In this document: piece by piece, positions 1,855 through 42,894 of the stretch
Position numbering within the stretch: position 1 is the stretch's first letter
Layout of the letters: each line of letters starts with the position of its first letter
Assembly: GCA_021787495.1 (NCBI GenBank)
Contig: JAJYLX010000006.1
Coordinates: 1 to 44,965, forward strand
DNA: 44,965 nucleotides
Origin: Microcaldota archaeon
Lineage (GTDB): Archaea > Micrarchaeota > Micrarchaeia > Micrarchaeales > Micrarchaeaceae
Direction of reading: 5' to 3'
Made by a program: the position numbers and the translations under genes
The notes under the pieces: model-generated
The model's input: only the letters and a program-made list of their open reading frames with translations
The model's database searches: none
Told to the model about the DNA's origin: nothing

Positions 1855-2021
1855 AACACGTCGGAAAAGGCTCCTCGACGACAAAATTTGCGCGCATTTG
1901 CCCATTAGAGGCGTCTGATTAATACCATGATTAAATTAGCGTAAAGCAAGAATAACCTCAAAAGGCGCAAAAGAAAAGAAAATTGGTATATACTAAAATA
2001 GAGTTAGAAAAACCAATAATG
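1613..2021. other. AT-rich intergenic zone between convergent genes
   Basis: Apart from the doubtful 81-codon ORF and the repeat copy at 1993-2018, I see no gene here. The sequence is clearly more AT-rich than the housekeeping part of the window. Confidence 0.5.
1993..2018. repeat. 26-bp promoter-proximal repeat, copy R1 (orphan)
   Basis: Begins CTAAAATAGAGTTAG on the plus strand and differs from copies at 2466-2491 and 2940-2965 at about three positions each. On the minus strand its core is TTGG-TTTTT-CTAA, an imperfect palindrome. Unlike the other copies it follows the end of a gene and has no TATA-like box on its minus-strand upstream side. It may be left from a lost gene. Confidence 0.7.
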
Positions 2022-2453
2022 TCATTTCCTTCTTCTATCCGGCAAGGCCCATTCGAAGTCATCTATTATAATAGCGCAATATGTGGAGGCGCCAATTCCA
2101 TTCTTAGTGCCTACGCTCCCTATTATCCTTACCTTCCGGTTGCTCCTCTCTAGAATCTCCCTTGTTCCGTCTGGACTCATCCATGAAAAGAACTTATTAG
2201 AGGCTTTACCGGAGAGCATGCAGTCCATTGCGTGGACGTCGTTCTCGCCCGGCTGGTAAATATACATTTCGTCAATGTTGGCACCGCCGGTCCAGCCTTT
2301 CTCGGAGGATCTATGCCGTATGTAGCCTACCATATCCACACTGCGATCCTGCATGCGATAGAGGCCAATGTCGGCCAGTTCCTTTTCCAGCGCCTTTATC
2401 GACGTTATTGGAGGTTTATTTTCAATGTTAACTTTTTCATTGTTTTTTTCCAT
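2022..2453 (-). CDS. hypothetical protein, 143 aa
   Basis: Orphan protein with no recognised family. The N-terminus is charged (MEKNNEKVN), a short helical stretch follows (ALEKELADIG, residues 21-30), and the rest alternates short hydrophobic strands, ending in a basic RRRK tail. No signal peptide or membrane helix. ATG at 2453 is preceded by TATA-like GCATAAATAATACA (2493-2506), with repeat R2 between box and start. It heads in the same direction as the four small genes to its right and is the last of that set. Confidence 0.6.
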   Translation of the reverse strand: MEKNNEKVNIENKPPITSIKALEKELADIGLYRMQDRSVDMVGYIRHRSSEKGWTGGANIDEMYIYQPGENDVHAMDCMLSGKASNKFFSWMSPDGTREILERSNRKVRIIGSVGTKNGIGASTYCAIIIDDFEWALPDRRRK

Positions 2454-2465
2454 TTTATCATTTTG

Positions 2466-2491
2466 CTAAAACAGAATTGGAAAAACCAATA
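2466..2491. repeat. 26-bp promoter-proximal repeat, copy R2
   Basis: Lies between the TATA-like box (2493-2506) and the ATG at 2453, where the transcription start should fall. The minus-strand core TTGG-TTTTT-CCAA is a perfect palindrome with a 5-base spacer. Position and symmetry suit an operator; a short RNA hairpin is also possible. Confidence 0.7.
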
Positions 2492-2492
2492 T

Positions 2493-2506
2493 TGTATTAT
2501 TTATGC
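2493..2506 (-). promoter_or_regulatory. TATA-like box for the gene at 2022-2453
   Basis: Minus-strand GCATAAATAATACA, centred about 46 bases upstream of the ATG, with repeat R2 immediately downstream. Confidence 0.5.
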
Positions 2507-2926
2507 TCTTCTTAATGGAGTGCGCGGCATTGGTCTCTTTGACCTGGTGGCTTTCTCTACATTTAGAACCTCTATGTAACCAAGATGGAGATGATCGTCT
2601 GGCACCTGCACCTTCCCGGTAACCGTGATCCTCTCTCCAGCTGAAAACTTTTCGTTGCTTATCTTAGCCTCGTTCCATGGAGTAATCTCGCAGTTGAGGA
2701 AGTCCACTTTGTCCCAGTCTATGATGTCATCCCATAAGACTTTGGTGTTCGAAAGCTGAAAACCACCGCGGCCGCGCAGCTCGTCGCCCAGGTCGATACT
2801 GTATGGAAGGTAACCTGTCACCTTTACGGTTACGGTTTTATTCATGTAAGGGACCAGCCTTCGGCTGCCGTCGCATATCTCTTTCACAGAGAACTGCATC
2901 ACTTCCTTTTCTGCTTCTTTCCTCAT
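2501..2926 (-). CDS. hypothetical protein with possible OB-fold, 141 aa
   Basis: No named family recognised. Two strand pairs, TVTVKVTGYLPYS (about 31-43) and ERITVTGKVQVPD (about 98-110), followed by GYIEVLNVEKA, have the look of an OB-fold of the tRNA_anti or single-stranded nucleic-acid-binding kind. That is pattern inference only. The C-terminus is Arg/Pro-rich (SKRPMPRTPLRRA), which would suit nucleic-acid binding. ATG at 2926 follows TATA-like GCGTATAAAAAGT (2964-2976), with repeat R3 between. The gene's end overlaps the promoter region of the next gene in the set. Confidence 0.6.
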   Translation of the reverse strand: MRKEAEKEVMQFSVKEICDGSRRLVPYMNKTVTVKVTGYLPYSIDLGDELRGRGGFQLSNTKVLWDDIIDWDKVDFLNCEITPWNEAKISNEKFSAGERITVTGKVQVPDDHLHLGYIEVLNVEKATRSKRPMPRTPLRRA

Positions 2927-2939
2927 TTGATTACCTTAC

Positions 2940-2965
2940 TAAGATAGAGTTAGAAAAACTAAGAC
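2940..2965. repeat. 26-bp promoter-proximal repeat, copy R3
   Basis: Reads CTAAGATAGAGTTAG at its plus-strand start. The minus-strand core TTAG-TTTTT-CTAA is again a perfect palindrome although both arms differ from copy R2, so the symmetry has been kept. It sits just downstream of the TATA-like box at 2964-2976. Confidence 0.7.
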
Positions 2966-2976
2966 TTTTTATACGC
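2964..2976 (-). promoter_or_regulatory. TATA-like box for the gene at 2501-2926
   Basis: Minus-strand GCGTATAAAAAGT, about 44 bases upstream of the ATG, placing the probable transcription start inside repeat R3. Confidence 0.55.
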
Positions 2977-2977
2977 A

Positions 2978-3328
2978 TTATCTTCCCGGTAACCTAAGCC
3001 AGACGTCGCCATCCAAATAGTATAATGGATCTATTGCGCTATCGACGGGATCCGGAGAGGGTTTCGCCGTCGGCTTAAAGATGATTCCTGTGACATTTCC
3101 GTTTTCAGTGTTGATTGTTATATCGTCCAGCATCCCTATCTTAGCACCTTTCCTGTCAGATATAACCGCACCGATGTACTCTGTTGACCAAAGCTTCAGT
3201 CTGTCGATTGCCTCAAGCGAGATCCTCTCGATTCCTCTCAGGAGCCCTCCTCTGCTTGCAGGTGTAATGTAATATTTGTCGAACTCATTGCGGTCGATTC
3301 CATGGAACAAGGATTTTGTGGTTCCCAT
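2978..3328 (-). CDS. PRC-barrel-like domain protein, 116 aa
   Basis: The middle of the protein (about residues 48-86) has the typical small beta-barrel pattern: YIGAVISDRKGAKIGMLDDI, then a turn, then NVTGIIF. That resembles the PRC-barrel fold used by RimM and many small archaeal proteins, often as RNA or membrane-complex adaptors. The 45-residue N-terminus (containing HGIDRNEFDKYY) is unfamiliar. ATG at 3328 has GGTGAAG just upstream as a plausible ribosome-binding site, and a TATA-like ATATTTATATC at 3356-3366. It stands among orphan genes, so its partner is unknown. Confidence 0.65.
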   Translation of the reverse strand: MGTTKSLFHGIDRNEFDKYYITPASRGGLLRGIERISLEAIDRLKLWSTEYIGAVISDRKGAKIGMLDDITINTENGNVTGIIFKPTAKPSPDPVDSAIDPLYYLDGDVWLRLPGR

Positions 3329-3355
3329 AACTTCACCAATCAGTTATCTTACCTA

Positions 3356-3366
3356 GATATAAATAT
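3356..3366 (-). promoter_or_regulatory. TATA-like box for the PRC-barrel gene
   Basis: Minus-strand ATATTTATATC about 33 bases before the ATG at 3328. Confidence 0.55.
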
Positions 3367-3370
3367 GCTT

Positions 3371-3700
3371 TTACTGCCTTTCTAGTTTCTTTTTGCATGC
3401 AGACTCAACCACAGATGAGGCATATCTCAGCATGGAGCTCTTAGAACCCTTGCTGCTGCAGGAAGCATCCACCATCATGAATCCTTTCGGATTGTACCAT
3501 ACAGTAAACTGCACGTAGCTTTTGTCATCCTCGCTCCAATTGAACATGACCGGGAAGCTGCCGTATCTTACCTCATCGACATACTTGTTGTGAAGCCTGG
3601 CATATTCATCGAGGTTTTCACTGACTTCGCTTTTGAGGAGGTTGAATTCACCTTCCGTCATGGCAACCCCGATCGGCTTATCCATGTCTTTCATAACCAT
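3371..3700 (-). CDS. hypothetical protein, 109 aa
   Basis: Unrecognised small soluble protein. An N-terminal helical half (EFNLLKSEVSENLDEYARLH, about 18-37) is followed by strands (VQFTVWYNPKGFMMVDA) and a second helix ending in KKKLERQ. ATG at 3700 lies 19 bases from the end of the gene at 3720, so the two are probably one operon. No signal peptide or membrane segment. Confidence 0.6.
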   Translation of the reverse strand: MVMKDMDKPIGVAMTEGEFNLLKSEVSENLDEYARLHNKYVDEVRYGSFPVMFNWSEDDKSYVQFTVWYNPKGFMMVDASCSSKGSKSSMLRYASSVVESACKKKLERQ

Positions 3701-3719
3701 TTTATCACTGAATACCGTA

Positions 3720-4217
3720 TCAGCAGCTCTCGAACTTTCTGACCTCGATCGCCACGGCGCCCCGCCAGATCGGTGAGACCTTCCCCCAGACCTTCACCCT
3801 CGCCGCCTGCTGGAGCGGCGGTGCACCGGCCTCGTTTGCGCGCTTCCCGCTCAGCCTGCATTGCACGCCGTTGTTTATCATCCCGTATACATTGGTCTGT
3901 GATTCCTCCGGCTTGTCAACGAGGTAGAATACCCTGCCGAGCGCATTGACCGCGTATCCCTCACTGATTACGTACCTGCCCACAAGCGCATCGGAATCTC
4001 TCTGGGCGCCCTCGTGCAGCTCTTTTGGAGACATCACCCAGTAAAAGGCAGGCTCGTCGCTTGTCGCTGCCGTCTTCTTCCTTGCGATTGCGTCGAATGC
4101 ATCCATGGCTTCCTGTGCCATCGCCGCGCTTCTTGCGATCCTGGAATCATAGCGCCCGAGCATCGACAACTGTTTGTCGTCCCGGAATTTTTGTCCTTGC
4201 ACACGCTTTTCCATCAT
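3720..4217 (-). CDS. hypothetical protein, about 165 aa
   Basis: No family recognised. Residues 1-60 are helical and Ala-rich, the middle alternates strands, and the C-terminus (VKVWGKVSPIWRGAVAIEVR) resembles the closing strands of an OB-fold, like the end of the gene at 2501-2926. I chose ATG 4217 because GGTGAT lies just before it; an upstream in-frame GTG at 4235 is also possible. A TATA-like AGTATTATATCTG is at about 4262-4274. It is probably the first gene of an operon with the 109-residue protein. Confidence 0.6.
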   Translation of the reverse strand: MMEKRVQGQKFRDDKQLSMLGRYDSRIARSAAMAQEAMDAFDAIARKKTAATSDEPAFYWVMSPKELHEGAQRDSDALVGRYVISEGYAVNALGRVFYLVDKPEESQTNVYGMINNGVQCRLSGKRANEAGAPPLQQAARVKVWGKVSPIWRGAVAIEVRKFESC

Positions 4218-4261
4218 TATCACCGCGATTCCCACCCTCTATCAGGATTAGCTGGGTCATA

Positions 4262-4274: not shown

Positions 4275-4329
4275 TTTTTGGTTCACGCACAGTTTGTGCA
4301 TGCCGAATGGCCGCTGCCGCTCGGGGCGG

Positions 4330-4529
4330 TCACTCCCTTTTCATGTCCTTGAGCTTCTTGTGATTATCATTCCACACGTCGGACAGTTTTCTTATTATGC
4401 CCCTGGCGAACCATACCGTTCCGAGGATCGCAGCGGTCGCCTCGAACCCAAGCAGCGCGACAGAGCCCGCCGTGAGCGTGGCCTTCACGAAAGGTGAATA
4501 TCTCTTGGCGTCTCGCAGCAGTCCATTGT
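4330..4529 (-). pseudogene. displaced 3' fragment of the membrane-protein gene at 7369-7665 (200-bp direct repeat, left copy)
   Basis: This 200-bp stretch matches 7369-7568 with only three mismatches by eye (two near the stop codon, one near 4500). It encodes the last 65 or so residues of the small membrane protein, with the same DMKRE ending and TGA stop. There is no start, so it is a gene fragment. Homology ends exactly at the stop codon on one side and at 4529/7568 on the other. A PurM-like gene reads into it out of frame. Confidence 0.85.
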
Positions 4530-5243
4530 CGAGATTGAAACCTGATTCAAGATAAAATCAGAAAGCCCGTCGGTTAAATCCATCCCACCAGCGAATAAGC
4601 TACTACATCTGAGTATTGGCTTCAAGAACGAAATGGGATTTGTCTCGATTTCTCTTATCTCTTGGCGACTGCCTTTTGTAAGCAGGCGGATCTTGTCTTC
4701 CAGTATGTATCCTGCGAAACCGGCACCTATTTTGCCAGTAGTTACTATGAAATCGCCAGGTCTTCCCCCTCCTCTTAAGATGAGGTTTTCCTTGTTGGCG
4801 ACGCCCCATCCGAACCCGACAAAGCTAGTTTTTGTAGAAAAGTTTGTATCTCCCATCTCATATCTTACTGCCCCGTATAATATAAGTACGTCATTTATAC
4901 CCTTTACGAAGCTCTTCAGACCAGATGATGTAAATTTGTCGTCGAATGTGAAAACAGCCGAAAAACCTACTGGTTTCGTCCCTGTGCATATTATGTCAGA
5001 CATTGTATGTGCCGCGAGAAATCTGCTAGCCACTCTGTATTTGTTTATCCCGTAGCGATTTTCCTTTGGTAGATCACCCCTCAGATCATCCATGTTGTAA
5101 ACTAGGTAATCGAAATTCTTGGGAAACCTGCAAAAGAAGGCATCCTGATAGTTTCTTGGCTCTGCCGTGACGGCCTGCTTCCCTATTACAGAGATGGTTC
5201 TTCTTTCACCTAAATCTATGAGTTTTGTTGACATGGCAACCAT
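4485..5243 (-). pseudogene. truncated AIR synthase (PurM/ThiL-like) protein
   Basis: PurM-superfamily protein (AIR synthase, ThiL, SelD and relatives bind ATP and phosphorylate or amidate small substrates). Seen: an acidic YNMDDLRGD near residue 50, MSDIICTGTKP near 82-92 (compare the SDLAAMGA stretch of ThiL), GRPGDFIVTTGKIGAGFAGY near 160-180 (compare the GD.I.VTG.LG.A.AG element), and GGMDLTDGLSDF near 218 (compare the MDISDGL of ThiL). After that the family should continue for about 80-100 residues, but here the frame crosses into the 200-bp repeat at 4529 and ends in a 14-residue junk tail. The C-terminal half-domain is therefore missing. It starts in a GTG/ATG pair (5246/5243) that overlaps the stop of the DUF2797 gene, implying one operon. 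Confidence 0.75.
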
Positions 5244-6196
5244 CACAAAAGATTAAGTTGCTTGCTCTTTGTGGCGCCGTTGCTCAAGAGATTTCCTACC
5301 TTAGAAGAGAGGTTGACTGCAGATATGATTCCATTGTTATTCAAAACCAGAAAATCACCCTTGGGGCATACTAACCTGCCCTCGACCTTGAGTTCTTTTG
5401 ACTTTTCCGCTCTCTGGAAGCTTATTCTTGTTGCCCCGTCTGCCATAAGCAATGTCGCATAACGTGAATAAAAGTCGAATTCTTGAATGTCTTTGATGAA
5501 AAATTCGGAAAACTTACTGCTTTTCTTTTTTATCTCTGTGATTTTTTCGTCCAACATCGATGTAAAATCGCTTGTTTGGAATCCTAATCCCAGTGATTCC
5601 TCCTTTATCCTCTTGTTTCTCTTGTCTAGAACAGAGAAAGTGGTCTTTATGTATTCTTCGATCTGCTTGGCAAGACCCTGAGACGGCGTCCTGGCTATTA
5701 TTCTCGCGTAATTTGCGCCCTGCTCCAAAAGACGGGTCTCCGCTCTTTTCTCTGAGGTGGTCCCAACTTTTATGAAATCCTTGGTAAAAGCCGCCAGATA
5801 AACTAGATGGGGCGTCGTCTTGCAGTACTCTAGAGCTCCTGAATTGACACAGTCGCCAGTACAATAAGTACATTTGCTAAGGATGTCCTTGTCGATGCAT
5901 TCCCTACACTGATTTCCAAGTGTGACTCTTGTTGTCGTTTCACAAGGTATCAAATTGTCATCTGTATCAGGGTAACCTATGCAATACTTATCGTTTAGGA
6001 TCATAAAGGAGACATTGATTCCAGGTGCAAGTTCGGTCTTTATGACTTCTTTTGGTGCATTCTTGAAATCGGATAGGAGTATGAAGGCAGTAGGTTTGGT
6101 GGACCATTCATAGGACAGCCATTTGAGGTGTGCTATCTCAAAGTCGAACAAGTCATTCTTAAAGTCTGTCATAAGATCACATTGTGCTGCATCCAC
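5243..6196 (-). CDS. DUF2797 family protein
   Basis: A 317-residue protein that matches my recollection of DUF2797. It has a Cys cluster (C97, C100, C109, C112, C116) likely to bind zinc, followed by HLVYLAAF (130-137), KVG (143-145) and RLLEQGANYARIIART (155-170). The YLA..KVG..R...EQGA pattern resembles a GIY-YIG-like core, an inference. The C-terminal third (about 220-317) has charged helices and then strands. No biochemical role is established as far as I know. The start is GTG 6196 or ATG 6172. It is translationally coupled (TGATG) to the truncated PurM-like gene. The DNA is more AT-rich than the flanking host genes, suggesting transfer. Confidence 0.75.
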   Translation of the reverse strand: MDAAQCDLMTDFKNDLFDFEIAHLKWLSYEWSTKPTAFILLSDFKNAPKEVIKTELAPGINVSFMILNDKYCIGYPDTDDNLIPCETTTRVTLGNQCRECIDKDILSKCTYCTGDCVNSGALEYCKTTPHLVYLAAFTKDFIKVGTTSEKRAETRLLEQGANYARIIARTPSQGLAKQIEEYIKTTFSVLDKRNKRIKEESLGLGFQTSDFTSMLDEKITEIKKKSSKFSEFFIKDIQEFDFYSRYATLLMADGATRISFQRAEKSKELKVEGRLVCPKGDFLVLNNNGIISAVNLSSKVGNLLSNGATKSKQLNLL

Positions 6197-6269
6197 CTTT
6201 ATTTACATTACACCTTGATTGATATATAGGTCTTTCACCTCAACGACTTTGTCCAACAATTCCACTAAT

Positions 6270-6296
6270 CCCTAGGGGTTTATAGAACCCCCAGGG
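6270..6296 (+). terminator. strong hairpin just before the transposase gene
   Basis: CCCT-A-GGGGTT and AACCCC-C-AGGG pair around a TATAG loop, with one mismatch in 11 positions. It could stop incoming transcription or fold in the transposase leader. There is no T-run, so function is uncertain. Confidence 0.5.
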
Positions 6297-6321
6297 CATG
6301 TTTGTTTTGGCGACAAACATG
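6297..6321 (+). promoter_or_regulatory. perfect 9-bp inverted repeat over the transposase start
   Basis: CATGTTTGT and ACAAACATG flank TTTGGCG. Both possible start codons (6298 and 6319) lie within the arms, so in RNA the stem would hide the start. As DNA it could be a repressor site. Confidence 0.55.
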
Positions 6322-7256
6322 AGCGACCTTCGTAACTGGAAAACTTATAACCAGCAGTTGGTGGGCAGGGGACGACCTTCAAGGTACATCGATTCCGCAG
6401 TGACCAATTATGACAAGGACTTGTCGACTATGAATCGGGGAAAGGTTGGTGCACCCTACGAATATACCGATATGTTGATAATTGCCGGTTTCGCGATAAA
6501 AACCGTGTTCAAACAGGGTTACAGAGAAGCGGCTGGAACAGTCAAGGATTACACCGACAGGATCAGCTTTATGCATCCTGACTTCAGGACTCTGCAGTGG
6601 AGAGTCTCCGCCATGGTAAAAGAGGGTATAAAATTCAGGATTTACGAGAGGGGTAAGAAAGATATTGAGGTGCTGATAGATTCCTCCGAGGTAAAGTCCG
6701 TGAATGGCGGTGAGTACAGGAGCACCAAGTACGGCAAGGTGAAACTCTGGGAGAAGGTACACGTCGCCATCGACAGGAAGACCCACAGGATACTTAACAT
6801 AATCATTACAGGGAATGAGGTGGGAGACGTCAGGGAGTTCGTGCCCCTCATGGAACCGATAGAGGAACTGAACACCGTCAAGAGCGCCACGGCGGATGGC
6901 GCCTATGGATCTGAGAACAACTTCAAACATTGCGACGAAGGCGGTATAAAACCGGTGATTCCTGTGCATGTCACTGATAGGCACGGCAGGCACAAGGGGA
7001 GAAGGATCGAGGAACAACTTGGATGGGTGCGTAGAGGGGTTCGCCATGGAGGAACCATCATCTGACAAAAGAGCAGATGAGAGAGAATCAGGACGATTGG
7101 AAGAACAGAGTAGGTTACCATAGCAGGTCCATGGTCGAAACCGCATTTTCCGTCTTCAAGGGTGCCTTCGGGGAGTACACATTCTCTAGGGGGGACGAGA
7201 TGAGGGAGAAGGAACTGCTCCTTAAAGCAGTCGTCTACAACACGTTTCTGATTTAA
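6298..7256 (+). pseudogene. IS5/IS4-type DDE transposase, frameshifted
   Basis: The first frame (6298-7065) carries an N-terminal RNWKTYNQQLVGRG motif, the first catalytic Asp in EVLIDSSEVK (D128) and the second in ATADGAYGS (D200). It ends at a TGA. The remaining part, including the catalytic Glu in GYHSRSMVETAFSVFKGAFG, lies in the -1 frame (open from 7035, ending at TAA 7254-7256). The switch must occur between 7035 and 7063, near a GAGGGG run. A -1 shift could in principle be programmed, as in some insertion sequences, but no classic A6G or U-rich slippery heptamer is present. I favour a mutation that inactivates the gene. Start may be ATG 6298 or ATG 6319. Confidence 0.75.
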
Positions 7257-7290
7257 CCGGTCGATGTCTGAGGGCGTAGCGGTGACTACT

Positions 7291-7306
7291 ACTACTTTTC
7301 AGTAGT
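7291..7306. terminator. small hairpin after the transposase
   Basis: ACTACT and AGTAGT pair around TTTC, next to the right terminal repeat of the IS. Possibly a terminator or part of the transposase-binding end. Confidence 0.35.
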
Positions 7307-7368
7307 TATTGGACACAGCCGGTGCACGCACGATGACATGTCAAATGGGCACCGTCGCTAATGGATAA

Positions 7369-7568
7369 TCACTCCCTCTTCATATCCTTGAGCTTCTTGT
7401 GATTATCATTCCACACGTCGGACAGTTTTCTTATTATGCCCCTGGCGAACCATACCGTTCCGAGGATCGCAGCGGTCGCCTCGAACCCAAGCAGCGCGAC
7501 AGAGCCCGCCGTGAGCGTGGCCTTCACGAAAGGTGAATGTCTCTTGGCGTCTCGCAGCAGTCCATTGT
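7369..7568 (-). repeat. 200-bp direct repeat, right copy
   Basis: Matches 4330-4529 at a constant offset of 3039 with three differences. This copy is continuous with the 5' part of the gene, so it is the functional one. The 2839 bases between the copies hold the PurM-like, DUF2797 and IS genes. Confidence 0.9.
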
Positions 7569-7665
7569 ACTTCCCCTTGGCATCATTCTTTTCCGCTTGC
7601 CGCGCTGCGTCTTCTTCTCTCTTTTCCGCGAGCGGCGCGGCGACCTTTCTCTCCAATGCACTCAC
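7369..7665 (-). CDS. small membrane protein, 98 aa (intact copy of duplicated 3' end)
   Basis: The start is GTG 7665, overlapping the stop of the upstream gene as GTGA; upstream in-frame extensions run antisense through that gene and are rejected. The N-terminal 45 residues are charged and helical (EKREEDAARQAEKND), then one hydrophobic segment with Gly and Ala (about 50-77, containing GSVALLGFEATAAILGTVWF), then a basic tail ending DMKRE. That suggests one or two membrane passes with cytosolic ends. No family recognised. Its last 200 bp are repeated at 4330-4529, making it the apparent target of the insertion event. Confidence 0.65.
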   Translation of the reverse strand: MSALERKVAAPLAEKREEDAARQAEKNDAKGKYNGLLRDAKRHSPFVKATLTAGSVALLGFEATAAILGTVWFARGIIRKLSDVWNDNHKKLKDMKRE

Positions 7666-7994
7666 TTTGCCCCTGCGTCCTTGCGGAGCAGTGCCGAGGC
7701 GGCGGACCTCACTTCCTGGTGCCTCGACTCGACAAGCAGCTGGTTGACGGTTACGCCGTTTATCTCCTGCTCCTTCGCCCACTGGTTGTTGAGCAGCGTC
7801 ATCTGGCGCTTCGCGTCGGCGAACATCGCCAGCTCTATTATCGGCATGTCGCCGTTCTTGTCCCTGATCGTGAAAGCCGGCGACCTCTCCTCAATGAGCC
7901 GTCTGAACTTCTCCATCTCCATCTCCATGAACCAGTCGGCCATGTCCATGACGTTTTCCGCGCTGTGCGGCACAGCTCTGCTTTTTGTTTTCAT
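7662..7994 (-). CDS. hypothetical protein, 110 aa
   Basis: Soluble, mostly helical protein with Met/Glu-rich MDMADWFMEMEMEKF near the N-terminus and a helix containing MTLLNNQWAKEQE. No family recognised. I place the start at ATG 7994 rather than 8081 because TATA-like GGTTTAAATATC (8027-8038) falls between the two. Its TGA overlaps the GTG of the small membrane protein, so the pair is one operon and the products may act together. Confidence 0.6.
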   Translation of the reverse strand: MKTKSRAVPHSAENVMDMADWFMEMEMEKFRRLIEERSPAFTIRDKNGDMPIIELAMFADAKRQMTLLNNQWAKEQEINGVTVNQLLVESRHQEVRSAASALLRKDAGAK

Positions 7995-8026
7995 TGCGTC
8001 TCGCCTCTCTGTCTTCTGTCGCTTTT

Positions 8027-8038
8027 GATATTTAAACC
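8027..8038 (-). promoter_or_regulatory. TATA-like box for the 7994-7369 operon
   Basis: Minus-strand GGTTTAAATATC about 38 bases before the ATG at 7994. It decides the start of the first gene. Confidence 0.6.
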
Positions 8039-8202
8039 TATTGTGCGATGCGCTCGAATGGTCTGAGCTCAAATCCGGCATGTCTCAGGGACGTACCGTC
8101 AGCTGACGTAGGCCGACGACGCCGCGATGAGCGCGGCCGTAAAATGATTAATTGCCGCTATTGTGCCGCGGATCGTCCAGTTGAATGGTTTCGACGCAGC
8201 GT

Positions 8203-9594
8203 TCACGTCGCCGTCACGTTCGCGCTGGAGTGCGCCCCGTCCTCTCCCTGCACGTATACCGCGTACACGGCACCGCTGACCGGCATTATGGTTATGTGGC
8301 TGCTGCCGACGGATATGATGCCGTTGAAGGTGAAGGTCTGCGAGGCGTGCGCCGCAATCGTGTATCCGTTGCCCTCGAACTCGTGGTCGCTGAATGGCAG
8401 CGCAAGAGTCCCGTTGGCAGCGACTATAAAGGTGAGCTGCCTGAAGCTCTTTGCGAGTATGCCTTCGGGTATGACGTTTGCCATTATCGTGTTTGACGTT
8501 GCGTTGAGCTTTGTCTGCAGTATCTGCAGCCCGTGCCTCATGCCGTCGTCTATGTACGCGCTGATGTTGATGTTCCCATGCGCGTCAACGAACGGGAAGT
8601 TGCCCGATTCTGAGAGGCTGCCGCTGCCGTTCGAGTGGTCCCGCGAGCCGTTGCCTGAGTAATTGTATGAGCTGTTGATATTTGCGCCCGCTCCAACGTT
8701 GGCTCCGATGGTCAGAGGCTCTCCCCTGAACGGGATCATCGGCCTGTTGTCAAGGCCGCGGCCGCGCATGGCGAATGGCGTTACGAGCACCGACAGGTTG
8801 CCGCTGAGCATTATGTGGCTTATCCTTACGCTCCTGTTGGCGTTGTTTGTCACCGTGACTGAGAATGCGGTCGTGTTGCCGGAAACCGACAGTATTGCAT
8901 TGCTCTCTGTGATGTTCGCCCTCGCCTGCTCCAGCCTTACCCTCTCGCGCTCGGTCAGGCGCTCCCTGGCGCCGATCTGGTTTTGAGTGGCGTTGCCGAC
9001 GACAACAGCCTTGACGGACGGCACCATCACGAAGACGGACGAAGTGGAGTTGCCCGTGAAGATCGAGACTATGCTAGGTGTGAAGTCTATCAGGGCGCTC
9101 ATCGTGCCGTTGGCTGTGGTCTCGCTCACGTTCGCCGTCAGCGTGTCGCTGCCGGCTGGAAGCGTGACCGCGTAGGTCGTGCCATTTATCGTTATGTTGG
9201 CGGAGCTTATATGCATGCTCACGGCCGTGATTACGGAGTTGGAAGGCACTGTGGCACTGCCTATCACCTGGGTCACGTTGATGAGCTGCATGAGGTTGAG
9301 GGTTCCCGAGCCGCTGCCGGAGACCCATGCGGATGTGCCGTTAGTGTAATTGACGTGCGCCTGTAGGGATGAGTACGCGACTGACAGCGCGTTCGTGCCG
9401 CTCGGCACTGACGGCGGATCGGTTATGCTGAACACGACCTGGCTGCCGGAGCCCGGTACTGGCGGCAGGCCTCCCTGCACAGTCGTCGTTGAGTAAGTGG
9501 CATTCTGGCCCCCCATGCTGTAGATGGCGTACGCGGCTACTGCTATCACTGCCAAAGCCGCTATCCCGATTGCAATCCTGCTGCCTTTTCCCAT
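8203..9594 (-). CDS. secreted or membrane-anchored DUF4382-like protein
   Basis: About 463 residues. It begins with a short basic stretch and a hydrophobic helix (IAIGIAALAVIAVAAYAIYS), serving as signal peptide or anchor. The following domain (about 50-200) starts VVFSITDPPSVPSGTNALSV, which resembles DUF4382, a beta-sandwich of exported proteins. The second half is rich in N-x-S/T sequons, consistent with archaeal N-glycosylation, and contains a Gly/Ser/Asn-rich linker around 300-330. I use ATG 9594, because GGTGA precedes it at good spacing, rather than GTG 9603. It stands alone with its own promoter near the pilus-like operons, so a cell-surface role is likely; substrate unknown. Confidence 0.7.
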   Translation of the reverse strand: MGKGSRIAIGIAALAVIAVAAYAIYSMGGQNATYSTTTVQGGLPPVPGSGSQVVFSITDPPSVPSGTNALSVAYSSLQAHVNYTNGTSAWVSGSGSGTLNLMQLINVTQVIGSATVPSNSVITAVSMHISSANITINGTTYAVTLPAGSDTLTANVSETTANGTMSALIDFTPSIVSIFTGNSTSSVFVMVPSVKAVVVGNATQNQIGARERLTERERVRLEQARANITESNAILSVSGNTTAFSVTVTNNANRSVRISHIMLSGNLSVLVTPFAMRGRGLDNRPMIPFRGEPLTIGANVGAGANINSSYNYSGNGSRDHSNGSGSLSESGNFPFVDAHGNINISAYIDDGMRHGLQILQTKLNATSNTIMANVIPEGILAKSFRQLTFIVAANGTLALPFSDHEFEGNGYTIAAHASQTFTFNGIISVGSSHITIMPVSGAVYAVYVQGEDGAHSSANVTAT

Positions 9595-9630
9595 AAGGTT
9601 CACCGTTACTGTTTACTTGCGTAAAGGAAT

Positions 9631-29259: not shown

Positions 29260-31019
29260 TACAGGTCGCCGCCGCCCTTAGATGCCCTTTTCAGGCCGAT
29301 TATGCGCGTCAGGAGCGCCTTTTCCTCCTCGCTCAGCAGCCCCTCGCTCGACGCGAGCGCCCGCTCGTCGCCGTCGCGGACGCGCGTGTACAGCCTCTGC
29401 CCCTCCTTCACCTGGCGCCCGAACGTTATGCCTTCCATCGAGACCGCGACGCTGTCGCCCTTCAGCGCGGCCTCGATCGCGGTCTTGTCGTTCTGTATGC
29501 CCTTTATCTTGCCGATGACCGCACCGGTCTCGTCCATCACCGTATAGCCGGGCTTTATCCTGCCAGACAGCACGGTAACGCCGAAGATTGCCGGATGGGA
29601 GACCCTGAAGCAGGAGTTGCGCAGCACCTCCAGCTCGCCCGGGAAGACGAGCTCCTTCTCCAGTTCGGCCTTCGCGCTCCTCTCCATGTTCAGCGTTATC
29701 TCCTTGTAGTCGTCGAGCAGCTTGTAGATTATGTTGCCCTCTATTATCGTGATGGCGCTCGCGCTCGCGGTCTCGAACGCGTCCTTCTCGGTCGAAACGT
29801 TGAACGAGATCACCATGGAGGATTTCGGGTCCATGGCGCGCATGGCGAAGGCGTCGAGCACGTCGCGCTTGGTCACGTTCCCGAGGCCCTTCTTGCTGAT
29901 CCTGACCTTGTCCGCGCCGAGCAGCCTGGAGAGCGCCTCTATGCTGCCTATAGAATCCGCCTTCAGCACTATGCCCGTCCTGTCGGTCGAGAAGACCGAC
30001 CCGAGCTCCGCGTTTATCTTGCCCATGTAATCGAGGTCCGTCGTCTGTATGACCGGGGAGCCTGGCAGCGCGTCCTCGAGACCGGTGCCGCTTATCTTGA
30101 CGCCCGACGCGGCGTCGACCGACGCGACGCTGAAGAACTTGCTCGACGACTCCCGTATCTCGTGCAGCGGCTTGGGCTTGAGCAGCGCCTTGATCTTCGC
30201 GGTCGCGACCCCGCCGGGCGTGGCGAAGGCGACCATGTCGTTGACGCGCAGCGACCCCTCATAGAGTATTACGTCAATGGTGGTGCCGAGGCCCTTGACC
30301 TCCTTCTTCTCCAGTATACTGCCCTTGCCCGGCCCCTTCACCTCAATGTCAAGCCTGTCCTCCATGAACCTCTGCGAGAGCCCGGAGACCAGCATAAGCA
30401 GCTCCGCGAGCCCCTCGCCGGTCTTGGCGCTTATCGGTATTATCGCGACCTCCTTCTGGAAGTCCCTGACTGCGTCGTAGCGCTCGCTGGTGAAACCGAG
30501 CTCGCTCATCTTCCCTATCAGCCCGTAGATGCGGTTCTGGAGGTCCTCCTTGACGTAGTCGCTCTGCTGCTCCAGCGACGCGCGGATGCTCTTGGACCCT
30601 GTATCGTGCCACCCGGTTATCAGATCGACCTTGTTGGCCGCCACGACGAAGGGAGTCTTGTACTCCTTCAGTATCTCTATCGCTTCGACGGTCTGAGGCG
30701 CGAACCCCTGCGCTATGTCGACCACGAGTATCGCCATGTCCGCGGCGCTGCCTCCTATCCTCCTCAGGTTGGTGAAGGCCGCGTGGCCTGGGGTGTCTAT
30801 GAAGAGCAGGCCGGGTATAACGAGCTTCGATTTCGTCTGCTCCAGCACGGGCCCACATATCTGCCTTATGGTGTCGATTGGGACCTCACTTGCACCGATG
30901 TGCTGCGTTATTCCCCCTGCTTCCCTCGCGGCGATGCTCGAGCTGCGTATGGCATCGAGCAGCTGGGTCTTGCCATGGTCGACGTGGCCCATCACGCAGA
31001 TTATCGGCTGCCTTATCAT
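29259..31019 (-). CDS. infB: translation initiation factor aIF5B
   Basis: 586 residues, the short archaeal form of IF2/eIF5B without a long N-terminal extension. This GTPase promotes subunit joining and initiator tRNA placement. G1 is GHVDHGKT (11-18), G3 DTPGHA (75-80), G4 NKVD and G5 SAK. Domain II, the alpha-beta-alpha domain III (KADSIGSIEALSRLLGADKV) and domain IV (GRIKPGYTVMDETGAVIGKI) are all visible, and the C-terminal helices end in KGGGDL. ATG 31019 begins right before G1, as usual. Confidence 0.95.
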   Translation of the reverse strand: MIRQPIICVMGHVDHGKTQLLDAIRSSSIAAREAGGITQHIGASEVPIDTIRQICGPVLEQTKSKLVIPGLLFIDTPGHAAFTNLRRIGGSAADMAILVVDIAQGFAPQTVEAIEILKEYKTPFVVAANKVDLITGWHDTGSKSIRASLEQQSDYVKEDLQNRIYGLIGKMSELGFTSERYDAVRDFQKEVAIIPISAKTGEGLAELLMLVSGLSQRFMEDRLDIEVKGPGKGSILEKKEVKGLGTTIDVILYEGSLRVNDMVAFATPGGVATAKIKALLKPKPLHEIRESSSKFFSVASVDAASGVKISGTGLEDALPGSPVIQTTDLDYMGKINAELGSVFSTDRTGIVLKADSIGSIEALSRLLGADKVRISKKGLGNVTKRDVLDAFAMRAMDPKSSMVISFNVSTEKDAFETASASAITIIEGNIIYKLLDDYKEITLNMERSAKAELEKELVFPGELEVLRNSCFRVSHPAIFGVTVLSGRIKPGYTVMDETGAVIGKIKGIQNDKTAIEAALKGDSVAVSMEGITFGRQVKEGQRLYTRVRDGDERALASSEGLLSEEEKALLTRIIGLKRASKGGGDL

Positions 31020-34411: not shown

Positions 34412-36292
34412 TCACATCCTCTCGAGCGTCCCTATCCCGAGGAGCGAGAGTGTGCCTTTCATCGCGTGCTTGAAGGCATAGAGCAGCGCTATCCTCGCCA
34501 TCTGCTCGTCCTTTCGCTCGGCCTTCAGCACTGGTACCTTCTCGTAGAACCTGCTGAACTGCGCGGCGAGGGCGCCGGCGTAGTCCGTCAGCACGTTGCT
34601 CCTGTGCTCCGCGCACGCCTTCTCCGTGATCGCACCGCACTTTGCTATCAGCTTGACCAGCGCGAACTCCTCGTCGCCGCCGAGTTCGGAGAGAGATTTG
34701 CCCGAGACCCTCGCCCCCATTTCGCTTATGCCCGAGTTCTCTATGATCCTCGACGCGCGCGCGTACATGTACTGGCAGTACGGCCCAGATATGCCCTCGA
34801 AGTTCAGCGCTGTCTCCCAGGAGAAGATGATCTTGCGCTCCGGAGAGACGCGCAGCGTCTCGAACTTTATCGCGGCCAGTGCTACCTCCTTTGCGACCGT
34901 CTCCTTCTCGGAATCGGCGAGCTTCAGCCTGTCGCTTATGAGCTGCGACGACTTCTCCCTCGCCTCGCTGAGAAGGTCGTCGGCCGTGTATCCAGCTGTG
35001 CCCTTCCTCCCGGAGAACTTCCCGCTCTCAAGCTCGACCACGTTGTACGCGAGGTGCACAAGCCCCCTGGCCATGTCTGGCCTGCCCATCGCGTCGAACG
35101 CGAGCCTGACGACGTCCTGCTCGTACGATTGCCCTATGTCTATGATGTTGACGGCCTTGGCCACCCTGCCGTAATCCATCCGCCTGCCCTCGCTCGAGGT
35201 TATATTCAGCGGGGAGCCGTTTGGCTGCTTCTCCAGAAGGGGCCTGTAAGTGAACGGGTCCTCTATCAGCCCGAACTTCCACATGTGGAACGCGATGTCC
35301 TTCGCGGCATAGGTGGCTGCGCCGTTGCTCCTCACGAGAACCTTGACCGTCTCCTTTAGCCCCTGCATCGATGCAGGGAGGCTGCCGACCCTCTCGAAGT
35401 CCATTATAGTGCAGCCAGAGTACTTGCCGGCGCCCTCCTTCCTGACGACCCCGCTCCTCCCGAGCCTGTCCAGCGCCTTCTCCAGAATGCGCGAGCGTAT
35501 TATGTCGCTCTCGCATATCAGCACGTCATGGTATATGTTGTAATCGAACGCCGTCTCGTACTGCGCGAGCACGCACTTCTCGGCTATGTCGCGGAGCATC
35601 TTCGACTCGTACGTCCCGTCCTGCTCCGCGAGCCGCATCAGCCGGTCCATGTCGTCCTTCATGTCCCTCCCTTCCATCGCCCTGTTCACGCCGGCATAGA
35701 GCTCGCCGAGCCACTGGTCGTACTTCCTGTCCGGCTGGCTGCGCAGGTTCATCACGCCCCAGAGCAGCTCAATCATCTGAAGCCCCATATCGTCTATGTA
35801 ATCCTCACGCTCGACCGAATAGCCGCACGCGGAGTAGAGGTTAGCAGCCGTGTCGCCTATCAGAGCGTTGCGAAGGTGGCCTATGTGCCATGGCTTGTTA
35901 GGGTTGACGCTCGGATATTCGATTATGACCTTCTCCCCTTTCCCCACGTCGGAAGACGCGATGCCCTCCGCCCTTGCGAGCGCCTCCTCTACGACGCCCC
36001 TCGAAAACGCGCCGCGGTCCAGGTAAAAGTTAAGGAAGCCGTTCTCCGCCTTGACAGAATCGACGGACCCCGGCTTCTTTACGCTGTCGCATATCTGCTG
36101 CGCCACCACTCTCGGGTCCACGCCCTTCTGCTTCGCGATCTTGAACGCCACAGAACAGGCGACGTCACCGAAGCCCTTCTCAGGCATGGTTACGTCGTTC
36201 TCAAGGCTCTCGGCCCCGAAGCCGTTCTCCGCCAGCGCCTCCGCTATGCTGTCCCTGATTTCCGACATGACTTTGCCGTAGAACGCCGCCAT
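34412..36292 (-). CDS. argS: arginyl-tRNA synthetase
   Basis: 626 residues, class I. It charges tRNA-Arg. An N-terminal Add-1 domain (1-115), then NPNKPWHIGHLRNALIGD with HIGH at 136-139, and a C-terminal anticodon-binding DALR domain (about 510-626, GPYCQYMYARASRIIENSGI at its start). The KMSKS element is degenerate (around SSEGRRMDYGRVAK), as is common in ArgRS. It follows nnrD after four bases in the same direction. Confidence 0.95.
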   Translation of the reverse strand: MAAFYGKVMSEIRDSIAEALAENGFGAESLENDVTMPEKGFGDVACSVAFKIAKQKGVDPRVVAQQICDSVKKPGSVDSVKAENGFLNFYLDRGAFSRGVVEEALARAEGIASSDVGKGEKVIIEYPSVNPNKPWHIGHLRNALIGDTAANLYSACGYSVEREDYIDDMGLQMIELLWGVMNLRSQPDRKYDQWLGELYAGVNRAMEGRDMKDDMDRLMRLAEQDGTYESKMLRDIAEKCVLAQYETAFDYNIYHDVLICESDIIRSRILEKALDRLGRSGVVRKEGAGKYSGCTIMDFERVGSLPASMQGLKETVKVLVRSNGAATYAAKDIAFHMWKFGLIEDPFTYRPLLEKQPNGSPLNITSSEGRRMDYGRVAKAVNIIDIGQSYEQDVVRLAFDAMGRPDMARGLVHLAYNVVELESGKFSGRKGTAGYTADDLLSEAREKSSQLISDRLKLADSEKETVAKEVALAAIKFETLRVSPERKIIFSWETALNFEGISGPYCQYMYARASRIIENSGISEMGARVSGKSLSELGGDEEFALVKLIAKCGAITEKACAEHRSNVLTDYAGALAAQFSRFYEKVPVLKAERKDEQMARIALLYAFKHAMKGTLSLLGIGTLERM

Positions 36293-36296
36293 GCTT

Positions 36297-37187
36297 TTAC
36301 CTGTCGAACCTCTTCAGGAATGAGGGAATCGCATCTATTAAATCTGTCGCTATGATGTGGTTGCCCATCCTCCTGTGGAGGAGGTCGCCGATCATGGAGT
36401 GCGCGGTAACACCCGCGACGGCGCTCTCGAACGACGGGGCGCCGGACGCGGCGTACGCGGCGATCATCCCTGCCAGCACGTCACCCGTCCCCATCGTGGC
36501 CAGCGCCGGAGTCCTCGCCCTATTCACCTTTACGGACGCGCCGTCCGTTATCACGGTATCATGGCCCTTGAGCACAAGGGTGCAGCTGTACCTTTCCGCA
36601 AATTCAACGGCCTTCTCCATCCGGTCGTCGAGGTCGTCCGAGACGCTATAGCCCAGCCTGGTGAACTCCCCAGAATGCGGCGTCATTATCACGTCAGTGG
36701 TGAGCTTGGTGCCGCGGCGCAGCGCGGCCTGCATCGCCCCAGCGTCCAGCACCACCCTGTTCCCCTTCCCTGATTCCCACGACATTATGTTGCTGATGGA
36801 CCCCGCCACAAGGCCGCGCGGCTCTATTCCTGGACCAACGACAAGCACGTTGTGCACCACGGCACCGATGGCCCTGAGCAGGGCGACGCTTCCTGCGGAC
36901 TCGGAGAACGACCTGACGGTCAGCACCGCCGACCTGCTCTTCTCAAGCCTCTCAACGCTCCTGCTCACGAGCAGGTTGGTGTAGCCGGTGCCCGTCCTGA
37001 GCGCCGCGAGCGCCGCATTGGAGCATGCCGCGGAGAGCGCCGGGGCGCCCGTATAGACCCTGCTGCCGCCGAGGACCAGCACGCTGCCGTTGCTGTATTT
37101 GTTGGAGTACCGTCCCCTCGGCAGGGTCGCCCTCCTTATGTCGGCGGTTGTCGTGAAAAGACCGCCCCTTTTTGCCGCCTCCGCCAT
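36297..37187 (-). CDS. nnrD: ADP/ATP-dependent NAD(P)H-hydrate dehydratase
   Basis: About 296 residues, matching the YjeF C-terminal (carbohydrate kinase-like) domain that repairs hydrated NAD(P)H. LGGSRVYTGAPALSA (near 40-54), MTPHSGEFTRLG (about 168-179), TLVLKGHDTVI and the catalytic Asp in TMGTGDVLAG are seen. The epimerase (NnrE) domain that is often fused at the N-terminus is absent, so it must be separate or missing. ATG 37187; TATA-like ATTTTATAC (37230-37238) serves it and, on the other strand, the AbrB-like gene. Upstream of argS. Confidence 0.9.
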   Translation of the reverse strand: MAEAAKRGGLFTTTADIRRATLPRGRYSNKYSNGSVLVLGGSRVYTGAPALSAACSNAALAALRTGTGYTNLLVSRSVERLEKSRSAVLTVRSFSESAGSVALLRAIGAVVHNVLVVGPGIEPRGLVAGSISNIMSWESGKGNRVVLDAGAMQAALRRGTKLTTDVIMTPHSGEFTRLGYSVSDDLDDRMEKAVEFAERYSCTLVLKGHDTVITDGASVKVNRARTPALATMGTGDVLAGMIAAYAASGAPSFESAVAGVTAHSMIGDLLHRRMGNHIIATDLIDAIPSFLKRFDR

Positions 37188-42809: not shown

Positions 42810-42894
42810 GCAGAGGTAGCAAAGCCTGGTCAAATGCGCTAGGTTCAGGGCCTAGTCCCTTAGGGGTTCGAGAGTTCAAATCTCTCCCTCTGCA
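42810..42894 (+). tRNA. tRNA-Leu (CAG)
   Basis: 85 bases fold as a class II tRNA. The acceptor stem is GCAGAGG with CCTCTGC, discriminator A at 42894. The anticodon stem is CTAGG/CCTAG around TTCAGGG, giving anticodon CAG. A long variable arm (TCCCTTAGGGG) marks Leu, and the T-arm is GAGAG-TTCAAAT-CTCTC. No intron and no encoded CCA. A T-run (ATTTTTG) follows as a likely terminator. Confidence 0.95.
42873..42885 (+). repeat. 13-bp tRNA T-arm repeat, copy in the tRNA
   Basis: AGTTCAAATCTCT in the T-arm, repeated exactly at 42967-42979. Confidence 0.8.

Follow-up and report, generated by a model that had tools for sequence, protein, structure and literature searches.

The segment at positions 4330 to 7568 is best read as an instructive but ordinary rearrangement scar and not as a functional mobile element: a partial duplicate of a small membrane-protein gene appears to have become trapped behind foreign DNA. 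We give this reading a probability of about one half. It draws on features that we observe directly, namely a long direct repeat, truncated genes on both sides of one repeat boundary, a relative that is free of the insert, a distinct base composition, and the absence of an integrase. The window is the whole stretch of DNA that was analyzed, a complete contig of 44,965 bases, and belongs to a genome of 852 kb that is 86% complete and assembled in 10 contigs. The features discussed here are listed in Table 1.

Table 1. Features of the insert and its surroundings (positions are those of the window)
Feature	Position	Strand	Description
Outer neighbor gene	3720..4235	-	Homolog in relative G002 shares a contig with the small-gene homolog
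Counterpart flank beyond repeat copy 1	4280..4329	-	Leads to gene 3720-4235
Direct repeat copy 1	4330..4529	-	Displaced 3' fragment of the small gene
thiL (thiamine-phosphate kinase-like) fragment	4530..5237	-	Profile match to ~216 of 320
DUF2797 gene (PF10977)	5243..6172	-	Open frame; E = 1e-18; just upstream of thiL fragment
IS5-family insertion sequence	6245..7320	+	Imperfect terminal inverted repeats GACTTTGTCCAACAA / GGCTGTGTCCAATAA; transposase frameshifted
Spacer between insertion sequence and small-gene stop	7321..7368	-	48 bp; probable diverged copy (~70%) of 4280-4329
Direct repeat copy 2	7369..7568	-	3' two-thirds of the intact small membrane-protein gene
Small predicted membrane-protein gene, intact	7369..7665	-	~98 aa; probable GTG start overlapping the stop of the upstream gene
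Outer neighbor gene upstream of small gene	7662..8081	-	Same order in relative G002

The original prediction described two 200-bp copies at a constant offset with about three differences, and pairwise comparison confirmed this arrangement. The copies form a direct repeat with a spacing of 3039 bases, are identical at 197 of 200 positions (98.5%; BLASTN E value of ~1e-95 within the window, far beyond chance), and constitute by a wide margin the longest repeat in the window. There are exactly three differences, all of them transitions (4339 T / 7378 C, 4345 G / 7384 A, and 4500 A / 7539 G), two being synonymous and one exchanging His and Tyr. It was also correctly anticipated that one copy completes the small gene and the other is displaced, since in the right copy the repeat ends on the last base of the stop codon, and no in-frame start codon opens the left one. 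A crossover between the two would, as suggested, leave a single intact small gene.

Other repeats were seen in the window and elsewhere in the genome. A 21-base motif, GTTTTTCYAAYTCTRTYTTAG, occurs three times on the minus strand of the window (1993-2013, 2466-2486, and 2939-2959) at an exact spacing of 473 bases; two of the copies precede the starts of short genes, and the remaining one follows the second of these genes. The number expected by chance is 0.01, allowing up to 3 mismatches and with the pattern derived from these same copies, and the motif is perhaps a shared promoter or regulatory site. On contig C1, a tandem array of ~102- to 111-base units that are roughly 80% alike (60959-61855) is bounded by an 82-bp direct repeat (60660-60741 and 62030-62111).

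That the segment is extra DNA was borne out by a genome of the same genus (G002), which carries the small gene and its neighbors without the cargo. A single 12.8-kb contig of this relative contains homologs of 8203-9603, 7662-8081, the small gene, and 3720-4235, with order and strand conserved. Only a few bases separate its small gene (88 aa, ~38% identity) from the short gene that comes next, and thiL, DUF2797, and the insertion sequence are all absent there; the relative is distant and the gene directly downstream differs, so this is not a base-exact empty site. The split of the two lineages therefore preceded the gain of the cargo (or its loss in the relative), and the comparison of gene order supports a probable gain in the lineage of the window. 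No relative carrying the small gene twice in full was found, and searches of the genome-contig collection and of viral contigs returned no homologs of this gene. The rows of short minus-strand genes at 2022-4235 in the window and at L021:181-2619 in the relative differ between the two same-genus genomes. Those of the relative show a weak OB-fold (tRNA_anti-codon) resemblance that falls below the cut-off (Pfam E values of 0.009 to 0.12), and those of the window gave no tRNA_anti-codon match.

Base composition also sets the cargo apart, with a G+C content of 42.5% versus 57%. The two minus-strand cargo genes have 42 to 43% G+C overall and 45 to 48% at third positions, and the genes to the right of the insert have 54 to 59% and 67 to 77%, respectively. 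As genes at 2000-3700 are AT-rich too (46 to 49% G+C), the insert adjoins a wider AT-rich stretch.

The cargo was originally listed as PurM-like, DUF2797, and insertion sequence genes. The last two assignments stand, with the qualification that the transposase is frameshifted, and the "PurM-like" gene turned out to be the N-terminal two-thirds of a thiL homolog that is cut at the repeat boundary. The thiL frame enters repeat copy 1 out of register and is extended by ~14 foreign residues until it stops at 4485. For most of its relatives in the phylum the open frame spans ~308 to 370 aa, and about one-third of the cargo thiL is therefore missing. Because the end of thiL and the beginning of the small-gene copy are both cut away at the same point, 4529/4530, we take this point to be a probable deletion or illegitimate joint of genes that were once longer. 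The genome has no second thiL copy.

We also looked for a donor or a sister insert and rejected this line, as the collections searched contained no close match for DUF2797, thiL, the small gene, or the insert DNA. The DUF2797 gene, which starts with ATG at 6172 or alternatively with GTG at 6196, has no relatives in the other searched genomes of the family or order. Elsewhere in the phylum its relatives reach only ~24 to 37% identity, on plasmids there are only 25 to 36% matches (on three plasmids), and neither the genome-contig collection nor the viral contigs contain a close relative. Viral contigs had no match to thiL, and the insert DNA matched neither phages nor plasmids.

These searches bear on the proposal that circular DNA bearing part of the small gene entered through a single homologous crossover. 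The geometry fits, in that such an event would directly duplicate the shared stretch on either side of the insert. However, the circle would first have to gain 200 bp of a host gene fused to a truncated thiL, which merely moves the problem one step back, and the insert has no replication or mobility gene and no close viral or plasmid match. Nothing favors integration of a circle specifically, and we consider it rather improbable.

The insertion sequence does not account for the repeats either. Its transposase matches NF033579 with an E value of 4e-38 and 131.6 bits, slightly under the cut-off of 140, as expected because the frame is truncated: it ends at 7065, before the conserved C-terminal part, where related copies continue. 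Related copies in other genomes align to the same ends, and we found no convincing target-site duplication and no intact close copy in the genome. As the element reaches neither 200-bp repeat, the repeats are not its product by ordinary transposition. A composite transposon was ruled out, given that a single insertion sequence is present.

Past the stop codon, the sequences next to the two copies also resemble each other. The spacer 7321-7368 and the stretch 4280-4329 align collinearly at ~70% identity with one small gap, for a banded score of 27. None of 1000 dinucleotide shuffles, none of 1000 segments picked at random from the window, and none of 652 other stretches lying downstream of open frames in this genome scored that high. 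Because this likeness spans just 48 bp and was first spotted by eye and then tested, we regard descent of the two flanks from one sequence as likely rather than proven. If it is real, more than 200 bp was duplicated originally and the copies are older than the 98.5% coding identity implies, and gene conversion would be the simplest way to reconcile the two. The stretch upstream of the DUF2797 gene showed no homology to the left flank beyond 4280.

The flank also weighs on two further explanations. Break repair or template switching could have inserted a foreign fragment in one step while duplicating ~200 to 250 bp of the target, which would agree with a random cut through thiL, the lack of a recombinase, and an insertion sequence without a convincing target-site duplication. 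By itself, though, such an event leaves a ~30% diverged flank beside a 1.5% diverged coding part unexplained, and we think it quite unlikely. Alternatively, two strain variants may have been joined by an assembly artefact, as the 10 contigs and 86% completeness indicate that the genome is likely metagenome derived. Yet the contig spans both copies and extends well past each side, the copies differ at three sites, and the flank likeness and mutual truncation make a coherent biological picture, so that an artefact appears very improbable.

Taken together, the missing recombinase, the dead insertion sequence, the diverged flank, and the double truncation make a trapped, partly deleted duplicate the best account. 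Under the preferred scar reading, the small gene would have been duplicated along with at least ~50 bp of downstream sequence, and foreign AT-rich DNA (a DUF2797-thiL operon) and the IS5-type element would have come between the copies. An illegitimate or deletion joint at 4529/4530 may then have cost the second small-gene copy its 5' third and thiL its 3' third. Either gene conversion or a fairly recent joint would explain why the surviving 200 coding bases are still 98.5% identical next to a diverged flank. The sequence of these steps is inferred from the present arrangement, as are the deletion and the gene conversion.

The main rival to the scar reading is a decayed element of the type of Escherichia coli e14, which sits in icd. 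Integration in the small gene would have displaced 4330-4529 and supplied 7369-7568, with the integrase and most of the element lost later. Identity that stops exactly on the stop codon, as it does in e14 (PMC11148124), is what such an element would also leave, and in our analysis it counts against a scar. Additionally, the displaced copy has the base of the same-genus relative at both informative sites (4500/7539 and 4339/7378), which is what import of the gene's current 3' end would predict; with two sites only, this is slight support. Integrases are also present elsewhere in the genome, with five tyrosine-recombinase matches on contigs C1, C5, C6, and C8 and none on the window contig. Against this, the only recognized genes in 4530-7368 are the thiL fragment, the DUF2797 gene, and the IS5 transposase, which bears out the earlier remark that no integrase is present; no other site-specific recombinase was found in the insert. 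The cargo gene adjoining the joint is truncated, the copies differ by only 1.5% although their flanks differ by ~30%, and the candidate tRNA-targeted elements of this genome look different. We therefore consider a decayed e14-type element unlikely.

The broader suggestion of an integrative element carrying the 3' end of its target gene is likewise not supported, in view of the missing recombinase, the truncated boundary gene, and the diverged extension past the stop codon. Its accompanying doubt, that 200 bp is long for such a repeat, is a weak objection: e14 leaves a duplicated icd 3' end of 165 bp with 12 differences (PMC11148124), and length is therefore not decisive. A tRNA was also considered as a target and rejected, the sole tRNA of the window lying at 42810-42894. 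We give the least credence to a minimal element without an integrase that entered a protein-coding gene by means of an integrase acting in trans and made that gene whole again with a 3' end that the element carried. Repeats of a 3' end on either side of an insert thus do not, on their own, prove an integrative element, and the scar, as we read it, illustrates how foreign genes in small archaeal genomes can be caught and disrupted beside partial duplicates of host genes.

Known systems resemble the insert in part. Like IS5-family elements, 6245-7320 has terminal repeats and an IS5-type DDE transposase, but here the transposase is frameshifted. With e14 the insert shares a directly repeated gene 3' end (165 bp in e14 and 200 bp in the window), an intact frame on one side, and an orphan fragment on the other. 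It differs in that e14 has an integrase and element genes, whereas this cargo is made up of DUF2797, a dead insertion sequence, and a thiL that is cut short; in that e14 shows 12 differences in 165 bp versus three in 200 bp; and in that the likeness here extends past the stop codon into the flank. The same genome provides a direct contrast in two candidate tRNA-targeted integrative elements of conventional layout. One, of ~7.1 kb on contig C5 (29642-36732), has at 29642-29700 a repeat of 59 bp of the tRNA-Glu 3' end at 36674-36732 (57/59 identical), with an integrase match just inside (35864-36433). The other, of ~5.3 kb on contig C1 (~64754-70027), has at 70001-70027 a repeat of 27 bp of the tRNA-Leu end at 64754-64780 (26/27) and an integrase match at 64996-65568. 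As at the insert, direct repeats of a gene's 3' end bound extra DNA in both, but the candidates combine a tyrosine integrase near the tRNA with repeats of 59 and 27 bp, and the insert has neither.
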